From positions 1-42,686 of IMG/VR virus record IMGVR_UViG_3300031554_000003: a stretch of DNA of 42,686 nucleotides; one strand, 5' to 3'. This document shows, one piece after another, positions 1,375 through 20,035 of the stretch. The notes beneath the pieces were generated by a model. It had not been told where the DNA came from. It was given only the letters and a program-made list of their open reading frames with translations, and ran no database searches. Positions within the stretch are counted from its first letter, which is position 1. Every line of letters starts with the position of its first letter. A program made the translations under genes and the position numbers. This DNA is from a virus.

Positions 1375-1869
1375 ATGAAATGGGAAAACAATTTTTTAGT
1401 TTGGCTATTTATAGCAGCATTACTATTGTGCTTATCTTACTTTGCGCATTCGGATGGTGGTTATATTACAATTCCAATAGAAACCTATCAGACGTTACAG
1501 ACAGACTTCGAAGTGCTAACGTTACAGTTCAGCGTATTCAAGATGGCCTTGGTAGACTTATTGAAATATCCGGGATTGATAGAGCAACTCATATCGCAAT
1601 ACGAGGAGAGCTTAAACGATCAGAAGAAAATAACCGAAAACTTGAACGAACAAACAACGATCTTAGAAACATCAACAGCAGAGGAAGAACAGATATTAAA
1701 CGATGCCTCGGACTCTTTAACGACTGTGAAAAAATATTTAACCGACTCTATCAAAATTATAGAGCACTCAGGAAGGAATCAGCTCCTTAAAGAAATTGGA
1801 ATTGGAATTGGATGCTTTATTGGGGGAATTCTTACAAAAATATTGATAGATTATTTAAGAGGGGCTTGA
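1375..1869 (+). CDS. Spanin-like protein, outer frame of a nested gene pair
   Basis: 164 aa. The N terminus is a signal-like hydrophobic segment (about residues 7-24, ending LLLCLSYFAHS). Then comes a predicted coiled coil (about 35-130, heptad-rich, Glu/Gln/Asn-rich) and a C-terminal membrane helix (about 140-160, IGIGIGCFIGGILTKILI). A secreted coiled coil with a C-terminal anchor is the layout of unimolecular spanins. The lipobox is poor (L-L-C rather than G/A/S before C), so lipoprotein processing is uncertain. A second gene is completely embedded in another frame (1380-1790). Both starts share GGAGG at 1366-1370, which is 4 bases from this ATG. Confidence 0.6.
   Translation: MKWENNFLVWLFIAALLLCLSYFAHSDGGYITIPIETYQTLQTDFEVLTLQFSVFKMALVDLLKYPGLIEQLISQYEESLNDQKKITENLNEQTTILETSTAEEEQILNDASDSLTTVKKYLTDSIKIIEHSGRNQLLKEIGIGIGCFIGGILTKILIDYLRGA
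1380..1790 (+). CDS. Spanin-like protein (i-spanin layout), nested gene
   Basis: 136 aa, encoded entirely inside the 1375-1869 gene in the +2 frame, with its ATG only 5 bases downstream. It has one N-terminal membrane helix (about residues 9-30, SLAIYSSITIVLILLCAFGW) followed by a long charged helical region with coiled-coil character (residues 40-125). This is the topology of Rz-type inner-membrane spanins. GGAGG at 1366-1370 lies 9 bases upstream, so one ribosome site could serve both genes. A chance ORF would be unlikely to stay open for 411 bases and also carry this topology in the right context. Confidence 0.55.
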   Translation: MGKQFFSLAIYSSITIVLILLCAFGWWLYYNSNRNLSDVTDRLRSANVTVQRIQDGLGRLIEISGIDRATHIAIRGELKRSEENNRKLERTNNDLRNINSRGRTDIKRCLGLFNDCEKIFNRLYQNYRALRKESAP

Positions 1870-1894
1870 CTTTTGGATAATCTTTAATTAGTAT
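1866..1894 (+). promoter_or_regulatory. Sigma70 promoter P1 ahead of the structured RNA
   Basis: TTGACT at 1866-1871, 17 bases, then TAGTAT at 1889-1894. The expected start is about 1901-1902, just before the first arm of the structured RNA. The -35/-10 pair and spacing closely match the promoter at 3444-3472 (TTGACA, 17, TAGTAT). Confidence 0.6.
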
Positions 1895-1900
1895 ATAAAA

Positions 1901-1979
1901 AATCGGCAAGGATAAATTAAAGGTAATTTTCTGGGGTTGCTCTCCTTGCCGAGGTAGCCCCTGATGATTACCTTTTTTT
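1901..1979 (+). ncRNA. Pseudoknotted attenuator-like RNA or small RNA with intrinsic terminator
   Basis: Three helices interleave within 72 bases. Helix A pairs CGGCAAGG (1904-1911) with CCTTGCCG (1944-1951). Helix B pairs AAAGGTAAT (1919-1927) with ATTACCTTT (1967-1975). Helix C pairs GGGGTTGC (1933-1940) with GTAGCCCC (1954-1961). B encloses C and is followed by a run of seven T (1973-1979), giving a terminator. The 3' arm of A lies in the loop of C, so A+C make a pseudoknot or A competes with the terminator. With P1 this predicts a discrete RNA of about 80 nt or a switch controlling the membrane-protein gene at 1999. Confidence 0.65.
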
Positions 1980-1998
1980 ATTGGAGAGGATAAAATAA

Positions 1999-2358
1999 AT
2001 GAACAATATGAATGAAATAAATAATACCGGGTTAAAACTTGGAGCCTTATTTGGCTGTATATTTTTATCTGTAGCCTTTTTTTCAGTTATGCTTTATTTT
2101 ATTTTTTCAGTCGAAGGAGTAATGGTTGACTCTGAAGTTGAAGTTGCCATTCCGTTATGGACTGAAATCGTTCTTTTGGCTGTGGCCTGGGTTCTTGGAG
2201 GATTCGTATTTGGAATTTTCGTACATCTTACAAAAGCCTGGACCCTTGCTGAATTGGCCGCGCAAACTCAGGCTGTATCTATCGCGGAACATGGAATATA
2301 TTTATTTCAGGCAAGAATTAAAGATCTAAAAAAAGGAGATAAGAAAAATGAAGATTAA
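1999..2358 (+). CDS. Two-helix membrane protein, possible holin
   Basis: 119 aa. Two strong membrane helices lie at about residues 13-36 and 53-76, joined by a short acidic loop (VDSEVEVAI). A charged, Lys-rich tail follows (KDLKKGDKKNED). Short size, two helices and position between spanin-like and endolysin-like genes fit a class II-type holin or antiholin, but nothing proves it. GGAGAGG lies 10 bases before the ATG. The gene sits directly behind the terminator-like RNA at 1901-1979 and could be controlled by its readthrough. It overlaps the next start by 11 bases. Confidence 0.5.
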   Translation: MNNMNEINNTGLKLGALFGCIFLSVAFFSVMLYFIFSVEGVMVDSEVEVAIPLWTEIVLLAVAWVLGGFVFGIFVHLTKAWTLAELAAQTQAVSIAEHGIYLFQARIKDLKKGDKKNED

Positions 2359-2674
2359 ACGTAAAGAGATATTAAAATTGTTTTGCGAAGCTTGTCCTGC
2401 CCATCCTTGCAATATTAAACCAGATTGCTATCATTTTGATGATTTCAAAAAAGCCCTTGAAGAAAGTAAGGTTAAAGCAATTAGCCTAATTAAGTTATGG
2501 GAAATTAAGGATCTTTGTAAAAACAGACGTGCGTTAGAACATCCTTGTTTTGGATGCCCATACGATGATAAAAAAGGTGAATGCAAGGCTTATAATAAAT
2601 ATATTGCTAATAAGAAGCCCGGTCAGCCAATAGCTCCTCGAGACTGGAACCTTCCTCCTCTGGAAAAGAAATGA
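2348..2674 (+). CDS. Cysteine-rich hypothetical protein
   Basis: 108 aa. I do not recognise the family. Eight cysteines occur in two groups: CEACPAHPC with a further CYH near residues 13-28, and CFGCPYDDKKGEC near 67-79. This suggests one or two metal-binding knuckles. The AAAAAAGGAG site upstream lies inside the end of the previous gene, so the two are translationally coupled. The stop overlaps the next start (ATGA). Confidence 0.6.
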   Translation: MKIKRKEILKLFCEACPAHPCNIKPDCYHFDDFKKALEESKVKAISLIKLWEIKDLCKNRRALEHPCFGCPYDDKKGECKAYNKYIANKKPGQPIAPRDWNLPPLEKK

Positions 2675-2844
2675 AAAAAAATAAGAAAAAAATTCACCCA
2701 TTAGTGTCTCAGATAAAAAATGAAAAATTAAGACATGTGGTGGAAGAAATAGTTCAGGGTGACGTGAATGATCTAACTCCATTAGCCCTTGATAATCTTA
2801 TTGAGGGTATCCTGGAATTACAGAAAGAAAGGATGGTTAAATAA
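2671..2844 (+). CDS. Small hypothetical protein
   Basis: 57 aa, basic N terminus (MKKNKKKIHPL) then a helical, acidic body (VVEEIVQGDVNDLTPLALDNLIEGILELQKE). The ATG overlaps the stop of the gene before it (ATGA) and its stop is followed immediately by the ATG of the next gene, so it fills the gap in an operon exactly. The function is unknown. Confidence 0.65.
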   Translation: MKKNKKKIHPLVSQIKNEKLRHVVEEIVQGDVNDLTPLALDNLIEGILELQKERMVK

Positions 2845-3411
2845 ATGGGATATACACAAGATTATGTTACCATAAAAAGAAAAGAAATAAAAGAAATATT
2901 AAAACGTACACAGGAAAGTATTGATAGAAAAAAGTTAATAGCAGCCTGTGAAAGCGCTATGAAAAATCCTAAATTCCAGCGAGATTATTATAAAAAGGGG
3001 AATACCTATTGTAATCAAGGAAGTGAATGGATTTTAAAAAAACTTGGATATAATACTCAATTCTTCTATTCGTATTGGGAAGAACGTAAAATACATATCG
3101 TAACCACTGCGAATCAGATTTACGATAAATGCCTTATTGCAGAGAAAGCCGGGATGTTAAAAATAATAGATGAACAAACCGCTCAGGAATTGGCATGGAA
3201 AGGAATCCCCTCTCTTATAATCGCTAAATCAAAAGACCCTAAAAGGTGGGGACATGTTACTGTAACTTATCCCTCTCCAATAGGAGAAATGTTTCTTAAC
3301 TGCAATATTGGATGGGAAAATCTTATTTGCTCTCCATATGACTCCCGGTCTTTTGGGGGTGGGGAATCTTATCTCACTGATTACATTATTTACCAGGTTC
3401 CTAAATTTTAA
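2845..3411 (+). CDS. Putative endolysin, cysteine-peptidase/amidase-like
   Basis: 188 aa. A conserved-looking Cys follows a Tyr in NTYCNQGSEWILKKLGY (C56), and a His stands in RWGHVTVTYP (H137), spaced as in CHAP and NlpC/P60-type Cys-His peptidases. A helical N-terminal extension of about 45 residues precedes the domain, and there is no signal peptide. Its place at the end of a block with holin-like and spanin-like genes supports a wall-degrading role. The match is by motif look and context only. Confidence 0.5.
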   Translation: MGYTQDYVTIKRKEIKEILKRTQESIDRKKLIAACESAMKNPKFQRDYYKKGNTYCNQGSEWILKKLGYNTQFFYSYWEERKIHIVTTANQIYDKCLIAEKAGMLKIIDEQTAQELAWKGIPSLIIAKSKDPKRWGHVTVTYPSPIGEMFLNCNIGWENLICSPYDSRSFGGGESYLTDYIIYQVPKF

Positions 3412-3443: not shown

Positions 3444-3472
3444 TTGACAAAATAATTTAGTTGTAATAGTAT
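3444..3472 (+). promoter_or_regulatory. Sigma70 promoter P2, leaderless start downstream
   Basis: TTGACA at 3444-3449, 17 bases, TAGTAT at 3467-3472. The A of the ATG at 3480 is the eighth base after the -10 box, which is where transcription should begin. A perfect TATAAT at 3474-3479 also exists but is 24 bases from the -35 box. Confidence 0.65.
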
Positions 3473-3479
3473 ATATAAT

Positions 3480-3653
3480 ATGGAAAAGATAAATAAGAAT
3501 ATTAAGAAACAAGTTAAGAAATGTTCGGCAGTTGCTATTGATACAAATGTCCTGGCAAGTTTAGAAGCGTATCGTAATTCACAGGAAATTAAACCCTCGA
3601 AGATCAATATTATCAATAAATTAGTTAGGGATTTCCTTAAGAATAAGGATTGA
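3480..3653 (+). CDS. Ribbon-helix-helix protein, probable repressor
   Basis: 57 aa. After a Lys-rich tail there is a short strand (SAVAIDTNVL), then two helices (ASLEAYRNSQ and SKINIINKLVRDFLKN), the Arc/CopG/MetJ ribbon-helix-helix pattern. Such small proteins bind operators as dimers. No Shine-Dalgarno sequence precedes the ATG, which instead sits at the predicted transcription start of P2, so the mRNA would be leaderless, as for several phage repressors such as lambda cI from PRM. It stands alone between the lysis block and the tRNA locus. Confidence 0.65.
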   Translation: MEKINKNIKKQVKKCSAVAIDTNVLASLEAYRNSQEIKPSKINIINKLVRDFLKNKD

Positions 3654-3813: not shown

Positions 3814-3930
3814 AGTGAGAGTACTTGAAGCGGTAAACTCTCAGGGGAGTTGTGGTGATGGGAGTGCATTCCCCGGAATAGCTTGCGACCGAAAAACGTA
3901 CCGTTTCTGACCAACTGGGAAAGTCCGGGT

Positions 3931-4050
3931 AAGGCAGTGGCGAAATAGAGCAGACGCAAATGCGAGTGCCACCCTAGACAAGGTAAGGTTCGCAGAGGAT
4001 CACAGCTAAGAACTGCCCCGTCCGTGCAGGTTCAAATCCTGCCTGTCTTA
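3931..4050 (+). tRNA. tRNA-like unit with Leu-type D arm and abnormal anticodon region
   Basis: AAGGCAG (3931-3937) pairs with CTGTCTT (4043-4049) over seven positions. The T arm is perfect (GCAGG-TTCAAAT-CCTGC), and the D arm resembles leucine tRNA (TGGCGAAATAG, then GACGC). Between them are about 70 bases instead of the usual 40. TGCGA (3961-3965) pairs with TCGCA (3990-3994) around a 24-base loop, and a 31-base stretch follows before the T arm. This may be a tRNA-Leu with a small insert or a tRNA mimic. Confidence 0.5.
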
Positions 4051-4185
4051 ACATCCCGTAAATTGACCAATGTTAAACTGCTGGGATTTGCAACCCGGCA
4101 AGGAGGGTGGTCAGGGTGAGTATCCACTTGTTGATGGTACAGTCCCTTTGCTTCGGTATAGGGGATCAGTCTTTGAGAGAGACGT

Positions 4186-4249
4186 AGAGAGGGTTTCGGT
4201 GACATCGCAGTGCATTGCGGTTAGCTCGGTTCAATTCCGGGCCTCTCTG
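4186..4249 (+). tRNA. Short tRNA-like unit (64 nt) with irregular anticodon arm
   Basis: AGAGAGG (4186-4192) pairs perfectly with CCTCTCT (4242-4248), and the T arm CTCGG-TTCAATT-CCGGG is good. The D arm is minimal (GTT-TCGGT-GAC). The anticodon arm pairs TCGCA with TGCGG around only six bases (GTGCAT), or fewer pairs around eight, so no regular seven-base loop exists. GCA is the only obvious anticodon candidate. It could be a degenerate tRNA-Cys or a non-decoding mimic. Confidence 0.45.
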
Positions 4250-4328
4250 TAGCTTCAACCTGGTTTCTCGCGGAATCGGGCGGGTAATCCTCTCCGGCGT
4301 GAGGGTGCGCCATTCTAAGATGAAGTGA

Positions 4329-4523
4329 GGGGATAAAAAGCTATAGGCAATAGCTTTGGTATTAGATAGGGGAAACGTTACGTCCGGGAATGGTTAATGT
4401 CAGGGAAGCGCGCAAACCCCGGGACCCTTTGAGCTTAGTGGAAATTGAAGGCCGAGTGCTCATTTATGAGATACTGACTGACACTAAGCGAATCTTTTGT
4501 AGGTTCGAGTCCTGCTATCCCTG
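4329..4523 (+). tRNA. tRNA-like unit with ~120-nt structured insert
   Basis: GGGGATA (4329-4335) pairs with TATCCCT (4516-4522). The D arm (AAAGCT and AGCTTT around ATAGGCAAT) and the T arm (GTAGG-TTCGAGT-CCTGC) are intact. The centre is replaced by a long structured segment. GTCC and GGGAC arms enclose 4383-4423, and a perfect 8-bp helix pairs GCTTAGTG (4433-4440) with CACTAAGC (4482-4489) around 41 bases. The insert is too short for an ordinary group I intron. Acceptor plus T arm with a large insert recalls tmRNA design, but no tag reading frame is evident. Confidence 0.45.
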
Positions 4524-4529
4524 TATTGT

Positions 4530-4602
4530 GGTGGGTGCAGCTCAGTGGTAGAGCGCCTGACTGTGAATCAGGGGGCCGCCGGTTCAAGCCCGGTCCCTCA
4601 CC
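4530..4602 (+). tRNA. tRNA-His (GTG)
   Basis: Anticodon arm CCTGA-CTGTGAA-TCAGG gives anticodon GTG. The D arm is GCTC...GAGC and the T arm is GCCGG-TTCAAGC-CCGGT. The acceptor GTGGGTG/CCCTCAC has one mismatch. G at 4530 faces C at 4602, the G(-1):C73 pair typical of histidine tRNA. Confidence 0.85.
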
Positions 4603-5000: not shown

Positions 5001-5444
5001 ATGAGTACAGACATTAACAGTGTTGTATTAGTCGGGAGATTAGTGAAAGATGCAGAGCTGAAATACACAAATACCGGGATACCCGTAAGCAGATTAGGGC
5101 TTGCCGTCAACCGGAAGAAAAAGGTAAATAATCAGTGGATTGAAGAGGCTAATTTCTTCGACATCATTGTTTGGGGGAAACTCGCTGAGGTATTACAGCA
5201 ATATCTGTTGAAAGGTAAACAGATCAGTGTCCAGGGCGAGTTAAGACAAAACAGGTGGGAGAAAGAAGGAAAGCCACAAAGTCGGGTAGAAGTGGTTGCA
5301 ATCAATATACAGCTACTCGGGACCGGGACTGGACAAGTTCAGAATAATCCCCCACCACCGCAGTCACCACCTTCAAGGCCGCCATCACAGGGGAATTTGC
5401 CTGATGCCCTGGATGACGATTTTATGAGCGAAATTCCATTTTAA
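5001..5444 (+). CDS. ssb: Single-stranded DNA-binding protein
   Basis: 147 aa. Residues 1-108 form the SSB OB fold (NSVVLVGRLVKDAELKYT at the start, FFDIIVWGKLAE in the middle, VQGELRQNRWE later). A Pro/Gln-rich linker follows, ending in the acidic tip DDDFMSEIPF that recruits partner proteins in bacterial SSBs. Length and layout are those of phage SSBs. It sits upstream of the ERF annealing protein, as expected of a recombination module. Confidence 0.95.
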   Translation: MSTDINSVVLVGRLVKDAELKYTNTGIPVSRLGLAVNRKKKVNNQWIEEANFFDIIVWGKLAEVLQQYLLKGKQISVQGELRQNRWEKEGKPQSRVEVVAINIQLLGTGTGQVQNNPPPPQSPPSRPPSQGNLPDALDDDFMSEIPF

Positions 5445-11708: not shown

Positions 11709-12869
11709 ATGAGTGAATTAAAGTGGATTAAAATATGTATTGACATTTTCGATGATGAAAAAATTAAAATTATAGAAAACTTACCGGAAGGTGATACTCT
11801 CTTAATAATCTGGTTTAAATTGCTTGTTTTGGCTGGTAAAAAAAATGATTCAGGGCTTGTTTATATTACAAGAGACATCCCATATTTAGATGATACTTTA
11901 GCAACTGTAATAACAAGAAGTAACGTGACTGTCACATTGGCGTTACAAACCTTTGAAAAAATGGGAATGATTGAAAAAAATAACGGATTAATAGCGATAG
12001 TTAATTGGGAAAAACACCAGAGTGTTGATAAAATTGATGAGATAAAAAAACAAAATAGGATTAGACAACAAAAATACAGATATGGCCAAAAATTAGAAAT
12101 TGGAGCTATTTGCAGTTATTGTGGCAATAAGGCAACCGGGTTTGATCATATAATAGCAATAACAAAAAACGGAAAAGACACCAAAGAGAACAAAATACCC
12201 TGTTGTATTGATTGTAATAGACAAAAAAACAATCATGACCTTGTATACTTTTTAAATGAGCTGATATCAAATCGTAATGACGAAGTAATAGGACTCAATA
12301 AAAGGTTGTGTGAAATTATATTTTTTGATTCAAATACAAAAAAATATTCTTATAAAAATAACGTGACAGTCACGTCTAAAAATAACGTGACAGTCACGTC
12401 ACGTCACGCAATAGATAAGAATAGAATAGATAAGAATAGAATAGATAAGAATAGAATAGATAAGAATAGTAACAAAAACCCCGGTTTAAAAAAACCGGTT
12501 CCACCTGTAGATAATGATTTAAAAGAACTTAAAAAAAATGTAAGTGAATTTTTTAGAGAAAAATCGCCACAACATTTCCAATGCGATAAAGATTATGCTT
12601 TGCAAGGGAAATACGTAAAAGACTTATGTTTAAGGGCACAGGAAATAAACCCAAATTTTGACGATCAAAAAGCTTGGCTGAAATCTATTTTACACACGTT
12701 CTATTTAATTTGTTCCGGGCAGACAGGAAAGAAAACTTTAGATTTTTTAAAAGGGACTCCGTATGTCCCCTCGCAAATGTTATCCAAGGGAATATGGACA
12801 TATGTTCTTCAAGGAATGGAAACAATACACAAAACAATAAATCTTGATGATGTGGAGGATTTACCATGA
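11709..12869 (+). CDS. Replisome organizer / replication initiator with internal HNH domain
   Basis: 386 aa. Residues 1-115 match the winged-helix phage replisome organizer N-terminal domain (start ELKWIKICIDIFDDEKIKII, then NGLIAIVNWEKHQS). Residues 133-182 are an HNH-type finger: CSYCGNKATGFDHIIA with D146/H147, then CCIDCNRQKNNHD. Residues 225-255 are low complexity (repeats of IDKNR) encoded by DNA repeats. The C-terminal ~110 residues are helical. Initiators of this kind bind iterons in their own gene and recruit the helicase machinery. The HNH insertion is unusual. No helicase gene is seen, so host DnaB would be recruited. Confidence 0.8.
   Translation: MSELKWIKICIDIFDDEKIKIIENLPEGDTLLIIWFKLLVLAGKKNDSGLVYITRDIPYLDDTLATVITRSNVTVTLALQTFEKMGMIEKNNGLIAIVNWEKHQSVDKIDEIKKQNRIRQQKYRYGQKLEIGAICSYCGNKATGFDHIIAITKNGKDTKENKIPCCIDCNRQKNNHDLVYFLNELISNRNDEVIGLNKRLCEIIFFDSNTKKYSYKNNVTVTSKNNVTVTSRHAIDKNRIDKNRIDKNRIDKNSNKNPGLKKPVPPVDNDLKELKKNVSEFFREKSPQHFQCDKDYALQGKYVKDLCLRAQEINPNFDDQKAWLKSILHTFYLICSGQTGKKTLDFLKGTPYVPSQMLSKGIWTYVLQGMETIHKTINLDDVEDLP
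12354..12469 (+). other. Probable replication origin: iterons inside the initiator gene
   Basis: Two copies of the 15-bp palindrome ACGTGACAGTCACGT at 12361-12375 and 12385-12399 lie 24 bp apart within a tandem 24-bp repeat, followed by extra ACGTCACG half-sites. Four exact tandem copies of the AT-rich 15-mer AATAGATAAGAATAG then occupy 12410-12469. A related site ACGTGACTGTCAC lies at 11923-11935. Palindromic iterons next to AT-rich repeats inside the initiator gene is the lambda-O-type origin layout. Confidence 0.65.
12481..12498 (+). repeat. Perfect hairpin after the origin repeats
   Basis: CCGGTTT (12481-12487), AAAA, AAACCGG (12492-12498): a perfect 7-bp inverted repeat 11 bp after the last origin 15-mer, still inside the initiator gene. 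It may be part of the origin or simply codon-level chance. Confidence 0.5.
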
Positions 12870-14554: not shown

Positions 14555-14814
14555 ATACACCAATAACAAGTTATATTAGAGACATGATTTCTCATGAAGA
14601 AGAGATGCTAGATGATTTACGCTCAAAAGTAATTGAGCTAAATGATCATTTGAATCCTATTAGGATCTATCCTGATGAATGTGAAAAAGGTCCAGTGCCA
14701 ATAGAGGAGAAAGAAGCACGATCTCCTATTGAAGAACAGTTAGCTTCTAATAGCTGTATTATAAAAGACATAATAAATAAAATTCAGGATATGACGTGTA
14801 ATTTAAGATTATAA
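14551..14814 (+). CDS. Hypothetical helical protein, last gene of the rightward operon
   Basis: 87 aa, acidic, two helical stretches (ISHEEEMLDDLRSKVIELND and EEQLASNSCIIKDIINKIQD) flanking a Pro/Glu-rich middle. No family recognised. It is followed at once by the bidirectional terminator, so it closes the replication operon. Confidence 0.55.
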   Translation: MNTPITSYIRDMISHEEEMLDDLRSKVIELNDHLNPIRIYPDECEKGPVPIEEKEARSPIEEQLASNSCIIKDIINKIQDMTCNLRL

Positions 14815-14821
14815 CACAAAC

Positions 14822-14864
14822 AAAGCAGACTGTATTTATTATGTTAACGAATACAGTCTGCTTT
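14822..14864. terminator. Bidirectional intrinsic terminator
   Basis: AAAGCAGACTGTATT (14822-14836) pairs perfectly with AATACAGTCTGCTTT (14850-14864) around 13 bases; T-rich tails exist on both strands. It lies between convergent operons (rightward stop at 14814, leftward stop at 14879) and should serve both. Confidence 0.9.
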
Positions 14865-19974: not shown

Positions 19975-20035
19975 CCTTTTGCCCGGACTTCGGACCGGGT
20001 CCGTGGTTTACAGGGCTTGCGCCCTGCCGTCACCT
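19975..20035 (-). ncRNA. Twin structured intercistronic element, copy 2
   Basis: 61 nt on the leftward strand with GGTGACGG, hairpin CAGGGC-GCAA-GCCCTG, TAAACC, then CCCGG-TCCGAAGT-CCGGG (5 bp) and AAAAGG. It matches copy 1 (17684-17744) in length and flanks, while the first hairpin is completely re-paired with a GNRA loop in place of UUCG. It begins right at the stop of the 101-aa gene and ends in the ribosome site of the 74-aa gene. Confidence 0.75.

Follow-up and report, generated by a model that had tools for sequence, protein, structure and literature searches.

A strong predicted terminator interlocked with a second dyad behind a candidate phage promoter

A 42.7-kb virus record with a P22-type portal and large terminase (IMGVR_UViG_3300031554_000003; all 42,686 nucleotides were analyzed and are called the window here) carries an element of interlocking helices at 1866–1999, between an overlapping ORF pair (1375–1869/1380–1790) and a gene at 1999–2358. 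The locus raises the question of whether such an arrangement acts as an RNA switch, as a terminator, or as the source of a short RNA. A sequence-only reading had described it as a riboswitch or attenuator controlling the two-helix membrane protein encoded at 1999, or else as a discrete 80-nt phage RNA. Our analysis confirms the layout as a strong predicted terminator close behind a probable promoter, with a second dyad threaded through it in an uncommon manner. The element most likely yields a short terminated RNA that gates the downstream genes; the parts are ordinary, and only their interlocked assembly is unusual.

Three Interlocked Helices and a Predicted Rightward Terminator

The three helices interlock within 1903–1979, with a T7 run at the 3′ end (Table 1). 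Helix A (1903–1912/1943–1952) consists of 10 perfect Watson–Crick pairs, helix B of 10 pairs with one G·U, and helix C of 8 pairs with two G·U. All elements of the layout described earlier are thus present and were even slightly understated, as the helix joining the 5′ arm to the terminator loop has 10 perfect pairs and not 8. Helices B and C build one terminator hairpin (1919–1975) in which B is followed by a 2-bp bridge, C, a 3-bp tip, and a CCUUGC loop; the T7 run adjoins directly, and its first three T's lie inside the stem.

A stable stem with an adjacent U run gives the plus-strand hairpin the form of an intrinsic (Rho-independent) terminator, and this exceeds chance. The 70-nt RNA folds at −31.2 kcal/mol, compared with −13.3 ± 2.6 kcal/mol for dinucleotide shuffles (z = −6.8; 0/200), and by a d'Aubenton-Carafa-type score, in our own implementation, the hairpin ranks first on both strands of the window, its 38.9 being followed by 25.5. 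The T-run terminator proposed from the sequence is therefore upheld as a prediction. The stem energy computed for the plus strand is −30.1 kcal/mol vs. −20.3 kcal/mol for the minus strand and, as three G·U pairs become A·C mismatches on the latter, selection has probably acted on the RNA made rightward.

Table 1. Positions of the element, its component helices, and the neighboring genes in the window
Feature	Position	Strand	Remark
Overlapping upstream ORFs	1375–1869 and 1380–1790	+	1380–1790, weak Rz-like spanin match
Sigma70-type promoter TTGACT-17-TAGTAT	1866–1894	+	RNA start expected near 1901
A6 on plus strand, T6 directly past helix A on minus strand	1897–1902	−	Possible leftward termination site, score 10.7
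Helix A, 5′ arm TCGGCAAGGA	1903–1912	+	3′ arm of leftward terminator-like hairpin on minus strand
Helix B, 5′ arm	1919–1928	+	Base of rightward terminator
Helix C, 5′ arm GGGGTTGC	1933–1940	+	Upper terminator stem
Helix A, 3′ arm TCCTTGCCGA	1943–1952	+	Within top of rightward terminator hairpin
Helix C, 3′ arm GTAGCCCC	1954–1961	+	Two G·U wobbles, pairing on plus strand only
Helix B, 3′ arm	1966–1975	+	Base of rightward terminator
T7 run	1973–1979	+	Predicted rightward termination site, score 38.9, first of 19 in window
Ribosome binding site GGAGAGGA	1983–1990	+	Starts 4 nt past T run
119-aa protein with two hydrophobic stretches	1999–2358	+	First gene past terminator
188-aa protein	2845–3411	+	C...GHV...N pattern recalls CHAP/NlpC-type lysins, by eye only

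We assessed the rarity of the arrangement in control DNA. Among 81 terminator-like hairpins at the loci examined, no other had a loop of which nine or more bases could pair with the 40 nt upstream of the hairpin, the one exception being the same element read on the opposite strand. Phage and viral DNA totaling 1.60 Mb contained nine pairs of interlocked perfect stems of at least 9 bp, compared with 0.67 per equal-sized shuffle, and only this element among the nine has A- and T-runs at its ends. Bacterial DNA (1.31 Mb) contained no interlocked stems of this length flanked by both runs, so that the element has no counterpart in the ∼2.9 Mb of control DNA.

A Probable Twin Promoter and a Predicted Short RNA

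Taken alone, the promoter-like site at 1866 is at chance level (9/12), with 14 such sites in 5 kb compared with 15.1 expected. The pattern TTGAC-N18-TAGTATATA, with 14 specified bases, is found at exactly two sites of the window, 1866 and 3444, and at none in 100 shuffles; because the pattern was chosen after both copies had been seen, this match is suggestive and not a test. The 3444 copy is retained as TTGACA-17-TAATAT in a closely related contig (L092, at 17015) and precedes a small gene at 3480–3653. With 14 bases at fixed spacing in common with 3444 and 0 expected, the 1866 site is probably real, and we regard both sites as probable promoters. What had been called a good promoter thus gains from its twin, although its own match of 9/12 would not set it apart; the RNA start is expected near 1901, just before helix A. 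As a separate observation, the twin (3444–3475) lies upstream of a 57-aa protein that by eye resembles a ribbon-helix-helix regulator and for which Pfam gave no match.

Promoter and terminator together predict an RNA of ∼78 nt, in agreement with the discrete RNA of about 80 nt suggested earlier. On balance we favor a model in which the promoter at 1866–1894 and the terminator at 1919–1979 produce this terminated RNA and so throttle the downstream lysis-type genes. RNA polymerase would start near 1901 and transcribe the 5′ arm of A, next those of B and C, and then the second arm of A (A′), at which point A/A′ would be fully formed; with the emergence of the 3′ arms of C and B, the terminator (−31.6 kcal/mol) would win by 1972. 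After ∼78 nt, the hairpin 1919–1975 would form and the polymerase would be released at U7 (1973–1979), the site where transcripts from the upstream genes would stop as well. The product would be a discrete RNA, and genes from 1999 onward would be expressed only by read-through or antitermination. This dependence of the genes at 1999–3411 is expected because the computation places no promoter-like site between the T run and 1999. The hairpin, the U run, and the plus-strand bias are computed features; efficient termination, read-through as the control of the downstream genes, and a lysis cassette as the setting are what we infer. In an Escherichia coli test system, repression of a terminator by a ribosome at the stop codon ceased once the distance between them exceeded 27 nt (PMC4824070). 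Here 49 nt separate the terminator stem from the closest stop codon upstream, and a trailing ribosome should therefore not switch the terminator off.

The term lysis region, given to the neighborhood by the sequence-only reading, is weakly supported. ORF 1380–1790 has a single Rz-like spanin match (E = 0.0045), and the genes upstream of the element are otherwise tail-, holin-, and spanin-like on weak evidence. Downstream, the protein of 1999–2358 found no match in either the family search or the search for relatives; the protein of 2845–3411 matched no family, and its predicted structure was of low confidence and unusable. Within the part of the window's genes that could be assigned, no Q-like or other antiterminator gene was recognized beside the element. 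The ORF pair 1375–1869 and 1380–1790 is of interest in itself: the two are long and overlap in different frames, each opens with a hydrophobic segment, and one ribosome site serves both. The codon composition of the 1380 frame is more gene-like than that of the 1375 frame.

Helix A on the Opposite Strand

Helix A is not needed for termination. Of its conceivable roles, we tentatively place first that of a further terminator, which faces the other way and is encoded by the same stretch, and next, as a possibility held with some reserve, a first-forming nascent pairing that delays or caps the terminator; that it is a trans-acting or chance feature seems unlikely. Our confidences in the readings below overlap, since a leftward terminator could coexist with a transient helix and with a short RNA.

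Read leftward, the DNA gives TCGGCAAGGA, 30 nt, TCCTTGCCGA, and TTTTTT, which folds at −15 to −16.1 kcal/mol (z = −4.2) and with its score of 10.7 ranks seventh of 19 in the window. The A6-preceded helix A is thus a terminator-like hairpin of the opposite strand, which was overlooked in the sequence-only reading. A scan of bacterial genomes gave 43 stems (a raw count) with the core CGGCAAGGA...TCCTTGCCG beside A-runs, and many of these are plainly terminator-like; none of the 43 is an interlocked homologue. The recurrence of the stem core, together with the T6 on the minus strand, suggests that helix A may owe its presence to the other strand.

The element could then be an interlocked bidirectional terminator and nothing else, with B/C stopping rightward and A leftward transcription and the apparent pseudoknot a geometric by-product of packing both into 77 bp. 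We regard this as quite possible, short of probable. The A6 stands directly before and the T7 directly after the pair of dyads, an arrangement unique in the control DNA, and A-tracts ahead of terminators mark bidirectional ones (PMC12207403); a hairpin with a U run is indeed present on the opposite strand too. Its loop of 30 nt, however, lies outside the 3–13 nt used as a criterion for canonical terminators (PMC12207403), and on the minus strand hairpin B (−20.3 kcal/mol) would form first, is the minimum-energy fold, and would compete with A. Nor is there a leftward gene or a convincing leftward promoter nearby, the A6 could be part of the AT-rich promoter, and the window's ordinary example of such a terminator, between two convergent genes that meet at 14814/14879, consists of one hairpin (14825–14861). 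The leftward terminator nevertheless explains helix A at least as well as a riboswitch or attenuator does. If the element is only a terminator, it has little importance beyond the annotation of this phage.

Helix A in the Nascent RNA

In the rightward RNA, helix A is predicted with P = 1.0 for transcripts ending at 1950–1960, and the terminator takes over by 1972. The intermediate containing A (−19.2 kcal/mol) is metastable relative to the terminator at −31.6 kcal/mol and has the 5′ arms of the other two helices within its loop; at 52 nt it folds more stably than almost every shuffled sequence (z = −3.5; 1/500). From these foldings one can construct a cotranscriptional attenuator, in which A forms first and timely refolding into the terminator decides on read-through into 1999, and which could be tuned by elongation speed, by a protein, or by another RNA pairing with A. 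The leader-like placement of the promoter and the downstream ribosome site fits such a device.

We nevertheless consider the attenuator doubtful. A/A′ overlaps the terminator only at the 3-bp tip (1942–1944/1951–1953) and leaves the arms of B and C free, although their 5′ arms lie in its loop; with only the tip bases in common, helix A is not a classical antiterminator that excludes the terminator arms. Helix B, beside U7, can for the same reason pair without opening A, as a pseudoknot of H-type geometry with loops of 6, 14, and 13 nt (a geometric estimate, not a computed energy), and the predicted exclusivity of A and terminator partly reflects a folding model that forbids pseudoknots. Helix A may thus delay termination and probably does not prevent it. 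Of the control function proposed earlier for the alternative helix, what stands is that A is modeled to form before the 3′ arms of the terminator and could delay termination or persist as a pseudoknot.

A search of Rfam, which had been named as a check, found no family at the gathering level and only chance-level matches (E 0.8–5). With no known riboswitch or leader matched and with helix A barely overlapping the terminator arms, the label of riboswitch or attenuator finds support only in the cotranscriptional folding. The identity of the element as a ribozyme or a toxin–antitoxin RNA was rejected on the same search.

The relatives found do not reach the element. Those identified by their large terminase (99% and 67% identity) are contigs that all end before it, and they thus lend no covariation support to the three helices. 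DNA and protein searches of annotated phages gave no relative, and viral contigs contained no relatives of the flanking genes 1375, 1999, and 2845. An exact 19-mer of the 5′ part of the element had no match; the CGGCAAGGA...TCCTTGCCG dyad had 62 in viral contigs, none with the topology and apparently mostly in coding DNA. A terminase profile search of bacterial genomes gave no match.

It seems improbable that the ∼78-nt RNA accumulates as a trans-acting phage small RNA. Its 5′ tail would either fold over the loop, in a pseudoknot that stabilizes the RNA, or be displaced, and the C/U-rich loop (CUCUCCUUGCC) would pair with phage or host ribosome sites, possibly including that of its own read-through mRNA as in IsrK (PMC4825925), whose layout is similar. 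The loop bases UCUCCUU could form 7 pairs with the ribosome sites of each of six genes of the window, 2348 among them, and 6 pairs with the site of 1999. Any anti-Shine–Dalgarno-like loop would give such complementarity, however, no target stands out among the ribosome sites compared, and the loop is closed by helix A or the 3-bp tip.

Equally improbable, in our judgment, is a pseudoknot-gated terminator, in which the nascent 5′ bases pair with the terminator loop and a phage factor releases or holds the knot to time the lysis genes, the same DNA stopping opposing transcription.

Relation to Known Systems

Many phages time lysis through a late promoter that is followed by a terminator. If the element works as we read it, its 114 bp would be a compact form of such a unit, combining a promoter with terminators for both directions and with a pairing of 5′ end and loop, and it would offer a simple test case for whether a nascent 5′ end that pairs with a terminator loop changes termination. 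In phage lambda, the late promoter pR′ and the terminator tR′, which give the 6S RNA, precede the lysis genes, and the genes downstream need antitermination. The element resembles this unit in the order of promoter, closely following strong terminator, and putative lysis-type genes. It differs from pR′–tR′ in that no Q-like gene was recognized, in the length of the RNA (∼78 vs. 194 nt), and in its position inside a putative lysis cassette and not ahead of the whole late operon.

IsrK of the prophage Gifsy-1 is a short terminated RNA that shares one promoter with a read-through mRNA (PMC4825925). A phage promoter, a short RNA ending in an intrinsic terminator, and further genes downstream are also predicted here, with read-through as our proposal, and both leaders contain alternative base pairing. 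The alternative helix of IsrK pairs the short RNA with sequence past the terminator, whereas helix A lies within the short RNA; moreover, the element matches no Rfam family and has no recognized antiterminator gene adjacent.

Bidirectional intrinsic terminators share with the element the A-run upstream and the T-run downstream of the inverted repeats and a hairpin with U's on both strands. They use one common hairpin, in contrast to two interlocked dyads, one per strand, with a leftward loop of 30 nt. The A-B-A′-B′ topology within 77 nt next to a terminator is that of H-type pseudoknot leaders and riboswitches; unlike these, the element has no conserved ligand core and no match in Rfam, and its helices are not exclusive with the base of the terminator.

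Other Features of the Window

Several observations concern other parts of the window. In gene 2348, an 84-bp patch (2369–2452) is 93% identical in DNA to positions 5016–5099 of another contig (L152), with wholly unrelated flanks, and encodes the Cys/His motif FCxACPAHPCNIKPDCYHFDDFKK. Between tRNA-Met and tRNA-His, ∼700 nt (3815–4530) contain several stretches resembling tRNA T-arms and are partly conserved in a relative; no tRNA was called there at normal thresholds. Inside the replisome-organizer ORF (11709–12869), two 24-nt direct repeats with the palindrome ACGTGACAGTCACGT are followed by tandem 15-nt repeats AATAGATAAGAATAG (12353–12469), and these look like iterons of an origin of replication embedded in the gene. 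One Type-P5 twister ribozyme is found in the window, on the minus strand at 19983–20034, and three in the corresponding part of L092 (358–409, 825–876, and 3462–3513); repeats around the ribozymes suggest that the ribozyme region is being copied.
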